This document shows positions 3,401 through 43,106 of a stretch of DNA of 64,000 nucleotides, in pieces. The translations under genes and the position numbers were made by a program. Each line of letters opens with the position of its first letter. Positions within the stretch are counted from its first letter, which is position 1. Source of the stretch: Bacillota bacterium (GTDB lineage Bacteria > Bacillota > Sulfobacillia > Sulfobacillales > Sulfobacillaceae); contig JAKBWA010000043.1 of NCBI GenBank assembly GCA_021841025.1, positions 1 through 64,000 on the forward strand. Reading direction: 5' to 3'. The notes under the pieces were generated by a model that saw only the letters and a program-made list of their open reading frames with translations, searched no databases and was not told the origin of the DNA.

Positions 3401-5186
3401 GACGCGTGCTGATGCTCCAGAGGCGGGTTCCTTCTCTTTCACCATCCAGGGCATATGGCACCCCGACCAGCCCGTTCCCGTCCGACAGGAAATGCGGGGC
3501 TTTTCTTCCTGTGTGCGCTGGGTGTTCAACCGTCTGCACGACACTCCCCCAGGCAACCCCGACCCCAACGTTCCTGTGGCCGATCAACCGTTCAATCGAA
3601 TCAAGCGGGAAGCCCAGCGACTCTTTCACCTGAACTCCCGGTACGTAGCCGATGCGATGATGGCAGCCCAGGCGGTCATCGCATCCCAAAAGGAACTCCT
3701 GCCCCTCCAGATCCAAAACCTGGCAAAGCGAATCGAGAACCTGGACAAGGCCGAGAAAAAGGCCTGTCGGATCCTCAAGAAGCTCGATTCGGCGGAAACC
3801 GCCGCAAGAGGGGAACGCAAACTCCAGGCCATCCGCTGGCGGAAGAAGAGGGCGGCGCTACGCAAGACGGAACTGGAGAACCATCTCCGGAACGGCACTA
3901 TCCCCCCGGTGGTCTTTGGGGGACGACACTTGCTCAAAAAACTGACCCGAAGCCACGGCGAACGGCACCAGGCACTGAGGCGGGAATGGCGACTGCACCG
4001 GCAGGGCGCCCTCTACTCTCGGGGTGACGTGAACAAAGGCGGCAACCCCAATATCCGCGTCGTCAGCGAAGACGGGATCCGGTTCAGGCTCCAGGTAGCC
4101 ATGTCCCATCAAGCACAGTGCCACGGAACCGACAGCAAAGGACGTCCCATCATGCCTGCCGCCCCACGGATCGGCGGCTCCCTCTGGATCCCGGATAAGT
4201 GCCGTCTTTTGCTCATGGATGTCTTCCTTTGCGGTCGGCCTTACAGCGTCCGGATCATGGAAGAGATCCGGCCTCGTGACGCAATATTCCCCGTTGCAGA
4301 TGCGGAAGGCACCGTGTTTCGGGTCCATATCACCTGCGACCGGCAAGAGGAGTTCCCAGAACCCCAAGCCGATTTGTCTCATGGCGTATTGGGCTTGGAT
4401 GAAAATCCTCACGGCATTGCCTTGACCCACGTCGGACCCCAGGGCAACCTGGAACCCTTTCCGGAGGGGTTCACCCTCCCTGAAATCGCGGGCAGTCGTA
4501 AGTTGGCCGGCGACATCCAGGCCGGACTGGATCCCCGAGGGGCCGTCTGGCTGCATGTCCCGGAATTCCGCACCGCTCGGGGATTCCGCCGAACCTATCT
4601 GGCGGGAGTGGTCGCCCAGTTCGTCTGTGACGTGGCCCATTTCCTGAACAAACCGATTGTCCTGGAGGATCTGGACTTCGGGCAAACCCTGGAGAAGGGG
4701 CACCGGCCACACTTTAACCGGTTAGCATCCGGCTTCAACCACGGCCAGGTAATCCGGTTGATCCAGCGGCGAGCCCGGCGGGGAGGTGTTTCCGTAGTCC
4801 AGGTGGATCCCGCCTTCACCTCGGTCATCGGCGGTTTCAAGTATCAGGAATCCCTGGGGCTCTCGGTCCACCAGGCCGCGGCCCTCACCATCGGTCGCCG
4901 TGCTCTGGGAATCCGGGAGCGGATTGCTGGCGGTGCATTACAACGGATCCAACAGTTACGGGAAGACATCCAAAACGCATTGAACCGTTTGCCAGAACTC
5001 GTACCTGGGGAAGGAACGCGAGGCGCGGTAGGCGGGCAGCTCAAGCGCTTGTTGGGGCTTTTCTCAGACAAACGGATTGCGATCCACAACGGGTTTTTGA
5101 CCAGTTGGGCGGATCGAAAACGAACCGGGTTGTGGGGGAGTGTCAGCCGGGCGAAAAAGTTGCTTTCCAGCCTGAACTTTGGGTGA
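3384..5186 (+). CDS. tnpB: Large TnpB-like RuvC protein of the IS607-type element, zinc finger absent
   Basis: 600-residue TnpB-family protein, longer than common TnpB (about 370-430). TnpB proteins are RNA-guided nucleases encoded by IS200/IS605/IS607 elements. RuvC-I is visible as LGLDENPHGIAL (Asp) and RuvC-II as IVLEDLDF (Glu). In the RuvC-III region the usual V.P..TS block is present as QVDPAFTSVIG, but the CxxC zinc finger after it is missing and the usual D-x-N-A-A motif reads SVHQAAAL, placing His where the catalytic Asp is expected by eye alignment. A central Lys/Arg-rich coiled-coil-like segment spans about residues 110-170. The ATG start overlaps the tnpA end. The protein is full length without stops; whether it cleaves DNA is uncertain. 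Confidence 0.8.
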   Translation: MGKVAKTRADAPEAGSFSFTIQGIWHPDQPVPVRQEMRGFSSCVRWVFNRLHDTPPGNPDPNVPVADQPFNRIKREAQRLFHLNSRYVADAMMAAQAVIASQKELLPLQIQNLAKRIENLDKAEKKACRILKKLDSAETAARGERKLQAIRWRKKRAALRKTELENHLRNGTIPPVVFGGRHLLKKLTRSHGERHQALRREWRLHRQGALYSRGDVNKGGNPNIRVVSEDGIRFRLQVAMSHQAQCHGTDSKGRPIMPAAPRIGGSLWIPDKCRLLLMDVFLCGRPYSVRIMEEIRPRDAIFPVADAEGTVFRVHITCDRQEEFPEPQADLSHGVLGLDENPHGIALTHVGPQGNLEPFPEGFTLPEIAGSRKLAGDIQAGLDPRGAVWLHVPEFRTARGFRRTYLAGVVAQFVCDVAHFLNKPIVLEDLDFGQTLEKGHRPHFNRLASGFNHGQVIRLIQRRARRGGVSVVQVDPAFTSVIGGFKYQESLGLSVHQAAALTIGRRALGIRERIAGGALQRIQQLREDIQNALNRLPELVPGEGTRGAVGGQLKRLLGLFSDKRIAIHNGFLTSWADRKRTGLWGSVSRAKKLLSSLNFG

Positions 5187-38900: not shown

Positions 38901-40605
38901 ATGGTCGAATATCTTGCCAATGCAAAAAAAGTCACTACCGTGGAGGTTGAATCACCGTTGCGCAGAATTTTAATTATTGGGGGAGTAGCAGGGGGCGCCA
39001 GTGCAGCCACTAAGGCCCGGCGGCTTGATGAACATGCGCAAATTACCATGATTGAAAAAAGACCCTATGTCTCCTTTGCCAATTGTGGATTGCCATATTA
39101 CGTCAGCGGAGAAATTAAGACGGTGAACGAGCTGTTGCTAGAGACGCCCGACAGCTTTTATCACCGATTTGGAGTCGAGGTGCGAAGTGACCTGGGGCGA
39201 TGCCGAAAGGAGAGTGGCCGAGAGTATCTCCCTTATCACAGGCGAATCTCGTCATCATAGCTATGATGAATTGATTGTGGCTCCTGGAATCCGTCCTGTC
39301 TTATCAGCAATTAAGGGTCAGGAGACTGCGGGAGTATTTCAAGAGCGAACGGTTCCTGATGCTATCAGGCTCAGAGAATTCCTTGAATCCCACTCAGTTC
39401 ATCATGCTGTCGTTCTCGGATCGGGATTTATTGGTCTGGAGATGGCGGAAGCTTTTGGCAAACGGGGTATTACGGTAAGCTTAGTTGATAAAGCTCCTCA
39501 GATTCTTCCGCCTGTCGACTCCGAGTTGGCTCAGTACTTTGCCGCAAGAATCCAAGAACAAGGGATCGACATTTGGCTTCGAGATACGATTCGAGAGATT
39601 GGTCTAGGAAAGGTTTACCTCGAATCCGGCTCCGAACTGGCGGCTGATGCGGTGGTGTTGGCCCTAGGAGTGCGACCTGATTTGAAACTAGCCCGGGATA
39701 TGGGATTGAAGCTGGGGACGACGGGAGCTGTGTGGGTTGATCCCGCTATGCGCACCTCAAAACCTCACATTTTTGCCGCAGGGGATGCAGTCGAAAAGCG
39801 AGATTTGGTCACAGGCCAGAGGGCATGGTGGCCTTTGGCTGGAGTGGCCAACAAAGAAGGCCGGATAGCAGGAACTAATGCCGTAGGGGGGACGGCCGTG
39901 TTAAAAGGGGCTTTAGGCACGGCGATTGTTCGGGTTGAACCCTATACGGTAGCCGTCACGGGATTAACAGAAAAGACGACCCAGGCCCGCGGCATTCCCT
40001 ATCAAGTTCTATACACCATAAAGGGTGACCATGCTAGTTATTACCCGGGTTCTAAGGATCTGTTTGCTAAGATTTTGTTCGATCCTGAAGAGGGACGGTT
40101 ATTGGGGGCGCAAATTGCCGGACAAAATGGTGTTGATAAAAGGATTGATGTGTTTAGCACGGCAATGTCAGCACATATGACAGTCGAACAATTGGGGGAA
40201 CTGGATTTAGCACATGCCCCGCCGTTTGGATCCTCTAAAGATTCGCTTACCATTACCGGCATGGCGGCCGAGAATCTGAGACATGGGCTCTTTCAAGGCA
40301 TTACCTCGCAAGTACTCAACCAGTGGCTCCAAGAATCAGGGCAAGATCCTATATTGCTGGACGTAAGAAATCCGGATGAAGTCCAGGCAACGGGAGGACT
40401 CGGCGACTTTATTTTGATGCCGCTTGATCAATTGCGTCACAATCTGGATCAGGTTTCATCGGCAAAAGAGCGATCTTGAGTGGTGTATTGCCGCAGCGGC
40501 CACAGGAGTTATGTGGCAGCACGAATGTTGTTGCAACACGGCTTTGAGAAAGTTTATAACCTGGTCGGAGGTATGACGGCATGGCAAGCCTACTTTGCTT
40601 TGTAG
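38901..40605 (+). pseudogene. CoA-disulfide reductase/rhodanese fusion, broken by a frameshift and an in-frame TGA
   Basis: The product would be a flavin disulfide reductase of the CoADR/NADH-oxidase group with a C-terminal rhodanese domain. Frame 1 carries the FAD fold ILIIGGVAGGASAATKARR and the redox block FANCGLPYYVSG (active Cys), then ends early. From about 39190 the reading continues in another frame with SYDELIVAPG, VVLGSGFIGLEMAE (NADH fold) and HIFAAGDAVE. That frame meets TGA at 40477-40479, directly before VVYCRSGHRSY, the rhodanese catalytic loop, which then runs in frame to TAG at 40603. Two independent lesions argue for a pseudogene. True start uncertain. Confidence 0.85.
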
Positions 40606-40860: not shown

Positions 40861-40889
40861 TTGACACTCATCCAATTGGATGCCATAAT
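40861..40889 (+). promoter_or_regulatory. Sigma-A-type promoter upstream of the tRNA-like RNAs
   Basis: TTGACA (40861-40866), 17-bp spacer, CATAAT (40884-40889). This is a near-consensus promoter pointing at the tRNA-mimic RNAs and the TROVE gene, with no other gene in between. The start of transcription would be near 40896, leaving an upstream segment of about 85 nt before the first RNA fold. Confidence 0.65.
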
Positions 40890-40980
40890 CAAGGTGAGGT
40901 TGAGCACAGAACGACGCGGCTTCTATCCCGTCAGCGTGACTGCCGTGGCCCGTTCAATTTTTTCGACCAAAAGATTCGCG

Positions 40981-41098
40981 AGCAGAGATGGAGGATACTT
41001 CTACTGTTTCTAGAGGTCGTAGGTTCGAGTCCTACCGGGATCTGGGATCCCGTAGCTCAGGAGGTTAGAGCGCCAAATGTTCTCCCATCGCTACTTTT
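40981..41098 (+). ncRNA. Candidate Y RNA (YrlA-like): circularly permuted tRNA mimic
   Basis: The order is basal stem, T-arm, closed acceptor stem, D-arm, basal stem. T-arm: GTAGG-TTCGAGT-CCTAC (41019-41035). Acceptor: CGGGATC (41036-41042), loop TGG, GATCCCG (41046-41052), a perfect 7-bp stem closed by a 3-nt loop. Then TA and the D-arm GCTC-AGGAGGTTA-GAGC (41055-41071) with the usual GG. The basal stem pairs GATGG (40987-40991) with CCATC (41085-41089) and a T-rich 3' end follows. There is no anticodon arm; its place is taken by the basal stem. This is the known architecture of bacterial YrlA RNAs that bind Ro60/Rsr proteins, and the TROVE gene is directly downstream. A chance product of two tRNA remnants is the main alternative. 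Confidence 0.8.
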
Positions 41099-41114
41099 CG
41101 CGAAATAGCTTGCG

Positions 41115-41210
41115 GCAGCACTGAGCGAGGATACTTCGTCAATGGTAGACACTTCCTCACTGGAAGATGTCCGGGTTCGAGTCCCGGAGTTCGCCCCGCT
41201 CATCACTTTT
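41115..41210 (+). ncRNA. Second candidate Y-like RNA with tRNA-like arms in normal order
   Basis: Basal stem TGAGCG (41122-41127)/CGCTCA (41197-41202). Inside are a D-arm-like hairpin GTC-AATGGTA-GAC (41138-41150), a hairpin CTTCC-TCACT-GGAAG (41152-41166) and a T-arm TCCGGG-TTCGAGT-CCCGGA (41170-41188). A canonical tRNA is unlikely: the acceptor is mispaired, there is no CCA, and the middle hairpin has only a 5-nt loop. It shares GAGGATACTTC with the first RNA next to the 5' basal stem and an ACTTTT end after the 3' basal stem, while the stem pairs differ compensatorily. It ends 82 nt before the TROVE start codon. Confidence 0.7.
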
Positions 41211-41292
41211 GCCGCAATTCTTTTGGGATTCAAGAAGCCGTGCGCCAACCATGAGGCCCGCGGCTTTTTCATGCAGAAAGGATGAGGAACGC

Positions 41293-42864
41293 ATGTCCCG
41301 ATTGACTAAGAGGTTCCCAATTTCCGCGATGACTAAGCCCGAGACAATCAACCACACCGGTTTTCCGGCTTATATCCCATCGGATGACCAGGCGCTCGCA
41401 GAGCTAATGTTTGTGGGTACGTTTGGCAACACGTTTTATGCGACGGGTCAACACTGGACAGATGCGTTTACCCACGTAGTGAAGAAAATGGTCGCGCAGG
41501 ATCCGGAATTTGTTGCTAAGGCCGCAGTCAAAGCGCGTGAAGAGGGATTTGTACGCTCGGCTCCTTTGGTAGCCCTCATGGCCCTCATTTCCGGCAGTCC
41601 TCGGGCGCAGGCCTGGGGCCGGCGCGTCTTTGGACGGATCATTCGTACTGGGGACGACTTGCGTAACGTCGTAGCATTGGCCCAGTCCAAACAGTTCAGA
41701 GATGGATATGGCGGTCTGGCCAGGCGACTTGTGGCCGATTGGCTAAATACGCATTTGGATGAATATCAAGCCATCAAATACGCCGGGAAGGGTGAGCGGT
41801 TGAGCCTGCGCAACATCTTGCGACTGACTCATCCGGTGCCTCCTAGTCCAGAACGCGAAGCGATTTACCGCTGGCTGGTTAAGGGGACACTGACGCCTGA
41901 AGTGGATTTGCCGCAGATCACATGGCTGGATCGATTGAGCCGGGGTGAAGTCGATCCGGTGTCGGCTATTGAGAGTGGAAGGCTTCCGTTTGAAGCCGTC
42001 ATGCCGCGTATAGAAAAGGCTGATAAGGCTGTCTGGAGCGCTTTGTTGCGTCATGCTCCGTATATGTTCTTATTGCGCTCCATCAGTGCTTTTAACCGTG
42101 CCGGAGTTTGGGATAATGATGAATCTCTGGATTACGCGGTGAAAGTCTTGGCTGATCCGAACCGGATCCATAAGGCGATGCAGTTCCCCTTTCGCTATTA
42201 TCAGGCCGCTCAAGTTCTGGAGCGTGAGAGGATTGTCCAGCCCCTCATTAACGCCTTGTATGATGCCCTCGAAATATCTTTGAGCAATCTACCCGACTTA
42301 GGGAGATTGCGAGTGGCGATAGCGCCTGACGTTTCGGGTTCGATGCATGGCACCCAGGTGGCAGAACATACGTCGGCGGCGGTCATTGCAGGCATCTTCA
42401 CAGGAGCTATTTGGAAAGCGGCAGCGAACGCTGTGGTGCTGCCATTTGGCACCCAGGTAGTGGCCTTATCCGGAGTAAGCCCGAGGGATTCCGTCATGAC
42501 CATTAGTCGTGCTGTAGGACAGCTGAACGGCGGGGGCACCGATCTTTCTGTGCCAATTCGCGCATTGAACCACTCTGGCAAGATTATCGACTTGTTTATT
42601 GGACTTACCGACTCAGAGGATTGGGCAGCCAGTGGCGGCTGGCACGGAGAGGGATTTTTGGCAGCATGGCGACATTACCAGAAGATAGCTCCCCAGGCGC
42701 AAGCAGTGCTCATTCAGTTAGTTCCCAGCGGTACCAGAGTGGCGCCATCTAAAGACCCCAGTGTGCATTACGTCTATGGCTGGTCGGACAGCGTTCTCCG
42801 CTATATCGGCTATGTCATTCAAGGGCAGTCGTTGGTTGACTCCATCCGGTCGATGGAGTTCTAA
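41293..42864 (+). CDS. rsr: TROVE-domain protein (Ro60/Rsr homologue)
   Basis: 523 residues, close to the 530-540 of Ro60 and Deinococcus Rsr. Ro60 is a ring-shaped HEAT-repeat RNA-binding protein that holds Y RNAs and misfolded RNAs and in bacteria can tether a 3' exonuclease. The TROVE region (about 20-330) shows KKMVAQDPEFVAKAAVKARE and GFVRSAPLVALMALIS. The C-terminal von Willebrand A domain has a complete MIDAS: DVSGSM (about 346), the Thr of GGGTDLS (about 416) and the Asp of LTDSED (about 439). The ATG at 41293 follows GAGG; an upstream open extension overlaps the RNA gene and is rejected. A 2-nt gap leads to the XRE gene. Confidence 0.9.
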   Translation: MSRLTKRFPISAMTKPETINHTGFPAYIPSDDQALAELMFVGTFGNTFYATGQHWTDAFTHVVKKMVAQDPEFVAKAAVKAREEGFVRSAPLVALMALISGSPRAQAWGRRVFGRIIRTGDDLRNVVALAQSKQFRDGYGGLARRLVADWLNTHLDEYQAIKYAGKGERLSLRNILRLTHPVPPSPEREAIYRWLVKGTLTPEVDLPQITWLDRLSRGEVDPVSAIESGRLPFEAVMPRIEKADKAVWSALLRHAPYMFLLRSISAFNRAGVWDNDESLDYAVKVLADPNRIHKAMQFPFRYYQAAQVLERERIVQPLINALYDALEISLSNLPDLGRLRVAIAPDVSGSMHGTQVAEHTSAAVIAGIFTGAIWKAAANAVVLPFGTQVVALSGVSPRDSVMTISRAVGQLNGGGTDLSVPIRALNHSGKIIDLFIGLTDSEDWAASGGWHGEGFLAAWRHYQKIAPQAQAVLIQLVPSGTRVAPSKDPSVHYVYGWSDSVLRYIGYVIQGQSLVDSIRSMEF

Positions 42865-42866
42865 TT

Positions 42867-43106
42867 ATGTGGCGTAATGGCTTGGCAGTTCATCGGCAAC
42901 GGCGAGGCTGGACTCAGCTTGATCTAGCTCTAAAGGTTCAATGTGACCCGCGCCATATTTCCAGGTGGGAAAAAGGTTCGCGGTTGCCGTCTTTGCCGTG
43001 GGCATTTCGGTTAGCATGGGCACTCGAATGCCATATCGAAGATTTATGGTGGTGGGATCCTGACGAGGACGGTAAGTCGCCGGAAGACCCGGTAGAGACG
43101 GAATAG
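42867..43106 (+). CDS. XRE-family helix-turn-helix protein coupled to the TROVE gene
   Basis: 79 residues, essentially a single Cro/C1-type HTH: WTQLDLALKVQCDPRHISRWEKGSRLP, with a short acidic tail (DEDGKSPEDPVETE). The ATG lies 2 nt after the TROVE stop codon, so translation is probably coupled. It could autoregulate the RNA/TROVE operon or sense a stress state. No toxin partner is seen nearby. Confidence 0.8.
   Translation: MWRNGLAVHRQRRGWTQLDLALKVQCDPRHISRWEKGSRLPSLPWAFRLAWALECHIEDLWWWDPDEDGKSPEDPVETE

Follow-up and report, generated by a model that had tools for sequence, protein, structure and literature searches.

A YrlA-type Y RNA with a circularly permuted tRNA-like module and an anticodon-like arm upstream of a Bacillota Ro60 gene

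The window analysed here, a 64,000-nt stretch of Bacillota DNA, carries upstream of a Ro60 gene an RNA (RNA 1, 40975–41104, + strand) that we read with high confidence as a YrlA-type Y RNA: a Ro60-binding stem joined to a circularly permuted tRNA-like effector module with an anticodon-like arm. The co-transcription, modification and docking proposed below belong to the same reading as predictions. By analogy with characterized Y RNAs, the most likely role of RNA 1 would be that of a Ro60 tether or gate equipped with a tRNA-like effector domain. Permuted tRNA mimicry in YrlA is already known, and RNA 1 adds to it the anticodon-like arm.

Anatomy of RNA 1 and of its locus

The organization of RNA 1 can be read directly from its sequence. 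The two ends pair with each other, 40975–40994 with 41080–41104, in a terminal double stem predicted from homologues to be the Ro60/Rsr-binding part. The tRNA-like remainder opens with a hairpin resembling an anticodon arm (UUCUA / CUGUUUC / UAGAG; 40999–41015, +), found by folding and satisfying the arm pairs of the covariance model R1 described below. It is followed by a T-arm of 5 bp with the loop TTCGAGT (GTAGG-TTCGAGT-CCTAC; 41019–41035, +), identified by folding, motif scan and covariation. The acceptor helix comes next (CGGGATC-TGG-GATCCCG; 41036–41052, +; fold and covariation), its 3′ strand CGGGATC (41036–41042) being connected to its 5′ strand GATCCCG (41046–41052) by the 3-nt loop TGG (41043–41045). 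The dinucleotide TA (U8 A9) at 41053–41054 then leads to the D-arm, GCTC-AGGAGGTTA-GAGC (41055–41071, +), with G18G19 in its loop. Elements from T-arm to D-arm together occupy 41019–41071 within a Y RNA of ~130 nt. The initial annotation had listed these elements in this order within 40981–41098, and each of them is present in both sequence and fold; its limits were slightly too narrow for the whole RNA, and it left the fourth tRNA-like arm unlisted. The acceptor ends of the tRNA-like remainder are joined by the 3-nt loop, and its new ends lie between the D-arm and the anticodon arm, at the Ro stem.

The minimum-energy fold of 40975–41110 contains exactly the T, acceptor and D helices together with an 8-bp outer stem and an inner stem. 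The helices proposed earlier are all recovered, including the perfect 7-bp pairing of the acceptor across three nucleotides. Since the shuffled-fold z-score of RNA 1 (−1.6) is unconvincing alone, the RNA was judged by covariation. Random windows matched for dinucleotide content contain, per 64 kb, 0.007 occurrences of a perfect T-arm (loop TTCRANY) followed by a perfect 7-bp acceptor across a 3–7 nt loop, with neither a D-arm nor a Ro60 neighbour required. The real window contains this T-arm plus 7/7 acceptor pattern once, with a D-arm after it and the Ro60 gene downstream. Assembly of the arrangement by chance is excluded. Random tRNA debris, which the initial annotation had already judged not to be expected, is ruled out by this chance level and by covariation: both acceptor strands match perfectly and covary.

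ARAGORN calls no tRNA at RNA 1, whose acceptor is closed by TGG and so does not present the NCCA-ended acceptor of a tRNA. The T-loop and D-loop contain target sequences for pseudouridine formation by TruB and dihydrouridine formation by DusA. YrlA is modified by both enzymes (PMC8394870), and tRNA enzymes would modify the two loops of RNA 1.

Three Y RNAs (Y0, RNA 1 and RNA 2), spaced by 6–7 nt, precede the Ro60 gene. A sigma-70 promoter is predicted at 40861–40889 (+), TTGACA-17-CATAAT with a TG ahead of the second hexamer; it agrees with the consensus at 11/12 bases, about 2 such sites being expected by chance in the scanned region. Its position and sequence are conserved upstream of the Ro60 gene in a same-genus genome. 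The promoter spacer contains the palindrome CATCCAATTGGATG (40869–40882), the sole copy in the window. The same-genus genome has it with a single change (CATCCAACTGGATG), and it is a possible operator. The first Y RNA, Y0 (40898–40968, +), is a Ro-type double stem without a tRNA-like module. It folds into a 7-bp outer stem and the inner stem typical of this set of Y RNAs, and can be aligned with its counterpart in the same-genus genome.

The third Y RNA, RNA 2 (41112–41215, +), has a Ro stem and D-, anticodon- and T-like arms in the ordinary order, with no acceptor stem (fold z −2.55; R1 14.6 bits, E 0.029). In these features it resembles the Y RNA of Deinococcus radiodurans (RF01053), whose model it matches weakly over the full model length (17.8 bits, E 2.8), whereas RNA 1 differs from that Y RNA by its permuted order. 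RNA 2 and RNA 1 have in common GGATACTTC and a 3′ ACTTTT motif. With the ordinary order and no acceptor stem in RNA 2 and the permuted order in RNA 1, two different tRNA topologies stand in one locus. ARAGORN calls a tRNA-Val(CAC) at 41129–41197, within RNA 2; we rejected it as a genuine tRNA, its acceptor strands hardly pairing and the call sitting inside the Ro stem.

Ro60 is a ring-shaped RNA-binding protein. The gene in the window (41293–42864, +) encodes 523 aa with TROVE and vWA_Ro60 domains and a DxSGS MIDAS-like motif (Pfam PF25045, E 1.8e-15; PF05731, E 1.3e-13); among relatives of solved structure, the Ro sixty-related protein Rsr 2nvo is the best match (phmmer E 8.6e-29). It is followed by a gene for a small helix-turn-helix protein (HTH_3, 79 aa; 42867–43106, +; Pfam E 5e-10), with a homologue immediately after Ro60 in the same-genus genome. 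From its position, this protein may be a regulator of the operon. Promoter, palindrome, Y0, Ro60 and HTH gene are all conserved in the sole same-genus genome with Ro60. RNA 1, the two other Y RNAs and Ro60 probably derive from one transcript, from which the RNAs would be processed. No rtcR or rtcBA was seen at the window locus, an RtcB gene lying on another contig; a PNPase gene is present in the source genome. Upstream of the locus (38901–40605), the coding sequence of an NAD(FAD)-oxidoreductase is distributed over two frames, with the break near 39200, and a rhodanese-like tail seems to continue in another frame past 40479, possibly frameshifts in both cases.

Relatives of RNA 1 and covariation

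RNA 1 shares with YrlA (RF02553; Salmonella, PDB 6CU1) the Ro60/Rsr neighbour, the Ro-type stem and the permuted order T-arm, acceptor, UA, D-arm. The crystal structure 6CU1 superposes on tRNAs as a circular permutation (ARTEMIS, PMC11472068). The features that define YrlA are found in RNA 1, namely an adjacent Ro60 gene, a Ro-type stem with its motif formed by the paired ends, and permuted arms. RF02553 matches it with 40.2 bits (E 3.1e-7), below the gathering cut-off of 69; this limit was set by curators and does not describe the structure. It is also missed by a Rhizobium copy from a locus of the order rtcR-rsr-rtcB (60 bits) and by the other Bacillota copies (28–40 bits). Compared with the Rfam consensus of YrlA, RNA 1 has an extra anticodon-like arm and a 3-nt acceptor loop. 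Its likeness to tRNA comprises the D-, T-, acceptor and anticodon-like arms, the residues U8, A14, G15, G18G19 and C48, and the TTCGAGT loop; unlike a tRNA, it does not end at the acceptor, has no CCA end and carries the Ro stem between the D- and anticodon-like arms.

A search of 398 genomes of the phylum yielded 9 with TROVE. In 7 of them, the source genome not counted, Ro60 is accompanied by the permuted module with a 7/7 acceptor; the acceptor sequences differ among these loci, except for two near-identical ones. With an alignment of Ro60 proteins as query, 80 loci (mostly Paenibacillaceae) and 28 viral contigs were collected; a single Ro60 protein used as query in the contig scan had given no matches. 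Most cellular loci, including dozens from Paenibacillaceae, and several viral contigs carry the permuted module, and its linkage to Ro60 is thus directly observed. Variants of the Ro motif GGATACTTC are present in the relatives, a scan for the motif being too loose by itself.

The covariance model R1 was built from 33 other Ro60-linked RNAs, the window being left out. It finds RNA 1 over its whole length with 68.4 bits (E 2.1e-17). Across a non-redundant set of 34 RNAs, pairing in the acceptor helix reaches 99.6% and each of its 7 pairs is changed on both sides, the T-stem is 100% paired with 3 pairs changed on both sides, the D-stem is invariant (34/34), and the Ro stems are 87–88% paired and covary. 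Over the whole structure, 23 of the 34 pairs are changed on both sides, a level reached by 0/500 shuffles. The RNAs are related to one another and many belong to one family (Paenibacillaceae); their numbers count sequences and overstate independent events. Control alignments slid out of register gave far lower covariation, and the true alignment exceeded all of them. Covariation of the acceptor, the RF02553 and R1 matches and the adjoining Ro60 gene bear out the earlier proposal of a YrlA-type, circularly permuted tRNA mimic.

No permuted RNA was found at the Ro60 gene of the same-genus genome, where the upstream sequence shows only a Y0-like RNA. R1 matches other contigs of that genome, most of these matches being confined to positions 26–100, the part of the model that tRNA arrays match as well. 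The missing permuted RNA, together with an anticodon-like loop that is off consensus in the window, would suit a decayed copy, no longer made or used. Such decay is very unlikely: all helices of RNA 1 are intact, promoter and Y0 are conserved, and neither the Ro60 nor the HTH reading frame is interrupted.

The anticodon-like arm

According to the initial annotation, the permuted molecule was opened where the anticodon arm would be. This part of the proposal has to be revised: the hairpin 40999–41015 fills that place. It is flanked by the Ro motif GGAUACUUC, whose last bases form its 5′ side, and by the T-arm. Because a hairpin is retained at the anticodon-arm position, the molecule is opened between the D-arm and this anticodon-like arm. 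A hairpin at this place was found in 45 of 55 distinct RNAs, that of the window included. In the other 10 the arm is absent or distorted by our strict test, and in two Paenibacillaceae copies (L080 and the second copy of L069) it is entirely missing.

Where present in relatives, the arm has a stem of 4–5 bp and a tRNA-like 7-nt loop with the consensus CUNNUAA. Positions are conserved at C32 (38/41), U33 (40/41), U36 (36/41), A37 (36/41) and A38 (38/41), while 34 and 35 are variable. In the 34 RNAs, the stem is 94.8% paired over 4 pairs, the closing pair being seen as A-U, C-G and G-C. This arm is already part of the consensus fold obtained without supervision from the 33 other RNAs, and the variable region that separates it from the T-arm is usually 5 nt long, as in tRNA. 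The window arm departs from this consensus, with a variable region of 3 nt and U37/C38 in place of A37/A38. A shorter arm, treated as an insert by Rfam, occurs in copies on proteobacterial plasmids (Rhizobium, L158; Xanthomonas, L160); that of Xanthomonas reads AGC-CUCUUAA-GCU.

RNA 1 could instead be an ordinary YrlA with three arms, its hairpin being a spacer that extends the Ro-binding motif UACUUC. The motif does occur in Y RNAs without the hairpin (RNA 2, L080 and the second copy of L069), the Rfam consensus of YrlA has no hairpin at that place, and published descriptions of YrlA name only acceptor, D and T arms (PMC8394870). We nevertheless hold this reading to be rather unlikely. Against it stand a 7-nt loop in which C32, U33, A37 and A38 are conserved and 34–35 vary, the usual 5-nt variable region, a covarying closing pair, and the equivalent arm in unpermuted isomers with an acceptor end (see below). 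The primary Y RNA papers, which lie outside this comparison, may already describe the fourth arm or the unpermuted form.

Taken as an anticodon-like arm, the hairpin makes the fold a five-helix junction of acceptor, D, Ro stem, anticodon-like and T helices. It appears that the stem for Ro60 binding was inserted between the D-arm and the anticodon-like arm and did not take the place of the anticodon arm.

The arm might also be the functional part of the RNA, a decoy or substrate for anticodon nucleases or for t6A synthesis, with Ro60 as carrier. The loop consensus CUNNUAA is compatible with tRNAs reading ANN codons, many Ro60-bearing phages carry such RNAs, and a decoy role against an anticodon nuclease has been suggested for Salmonella YrlA (PMC7790460). 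On the other hand, the window loop has lost A37A38 and the arm is absent from some copies. We consider it improbable that the arm has this function in RNA 1, and retain for the RNA the predicted role of a Ro60 tether or gate with a tRNA-like effector domain.

Cyclic isomers and the origin of the permutation

A plasmid of Picosynechococcus sp. PCC 7117 (NZ_CP016482.1; L162) carries three tandem RNAs before Ro60 (1910–2033, 2058–2163 and 2190–2311) in the ordinary tRNA order. They read acceptor 5′ strand, UA, D-arm, an insert after the D-arm bearing a stem, T-arm and acceptor 3′ strand, with the acceptors GAACGGA/UCCGUUC (then GCCA), GGGCAGG/CCUGUCC and GAGACGG/UCGUCUC. In the first copy, the insert consists of a Ro-type hairpin followed by the anticodon-like loop CUGUUAA, and the 3′ end GCCA is encoded; this copy folds better than 200/200 shuffles. 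RNAs of ordinary order also stand beside Ro60 in phages: crAss001 (L164, 4157–4299) and the viral contigs L126, L129 (4517), L132 (4048) and L123 (2283). The Picosynechococcus and crAss-like RNAs have the same cyclic order of helices as RNA 1, their Ro stem too being placed after the D-arm and ahead of the anticodon-like/T side, but are opened at the acceptor and not at the Ro stem. The Picosynechococcus RNAs look like the unpermuted cyclic isomer of YrlA, and both cyclic isomers of one junction occur in nature.

Several further observations concern phages. In a further crAss-like phage (L170, T-arm at 4176), the anticodon-like loop reads CUUGUAA. In Gordonia phage VanLee (L168, 1892–1963), an annotated tRNA-Arg(tct) by Ro60 lies inside a Y RNA (R1 79 bits); the same holds for an annotated tRNA-Gln in Caulobacter phage CcrColossus (L165, 1619–1686; R1 73 bits). 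Both are probably misannotated. Xanthomonas phage Olaya (L166) and the window each receive a tRNA call of this kind from ARAGORN. Five phage contigs (L112, L123, L124, L165 and L166) have arrays of several Y RNAs of differing topology beside Ro60.

RNA 1 could also be the remnant of two tRNA genes in tandem: a 3′ half from the first gene and a 5′ half from the second would give its arm order by accident. The junction of two tandem tRNA genes does run anticodon arm, T-arm, acceptor 3′ strand, spacer, acceptor 5′ strand, D-arm. In addition, R1 positions 26–100 match tRNA arrays of the source genome with up to 55.7 bits, and RF02553 has matches in 7 control genomes. The R1 matches to tandem tRNA genes reflect the relation between the isomers, a tandem array holding the permuted order at its junctions. 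As a description of the present state of RNA 1, the remnant is refuted by acceptor strands that are perfectly complementary and covary in relatives. R1 further requires the flanking Ro stems (positions 1–25 and 101–137), and the RNA is found beside Ro60 in dozens of genomes and phages. An accidental remnant is therefore extremely improbable, although it may describe the origin of such RNAs. A tandem array of one isomer holds the other isomer at each junction, which would offer a simple route to the permutation.

For RNA 1 as a YrlA-type Y RNA, the proposed mechanism follows the known systems. In other species, Y RNAs bind Ro60 through their stem, and in Deinococcus the tRNA-like part docks PNPase to form RYPER, which acts in the decay of structured RNA (PMC6181284). 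The tRNA-like face of RNA 1 would similarly dock a partner onto Ro60, PNPase in the case of Deinococcus, or block the Ro60 ring. A wider proposal is that such bacterial Y RNAs represent whole tRNA cloverleaves into which a stem for Ro60 has been inserted at position 26/27, that they exist as two cyclic isomers, opened at the Ro stem (YrlA) or at the acceptor with tRNA-like ends, and that their anticodon-like arm is selected as a target of anticodon-loop enzymes. We put it forward tentatively, as a possibility with the balance against it.

What the comparison adds to the known mimicry is that the Ro60-binding stem is apparently inserted between the D- and anticodon arms, and that both cyclic isomers are found. 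Insertion and isomers together give a concrete route by which YrlA could have originated from tandem or insert-bearing tRNA genes. Reading such RNAs as Y RNAs also accounts for some odd 'tRNA' annotations beside Ro60 genes in phages. Recognition of the anticodon-like arm by anticodon-loop enzymes becomes a testable question. If such enzymes do act on the arm, Ro60 complexes would be sensors or decoys of tRNA damage.
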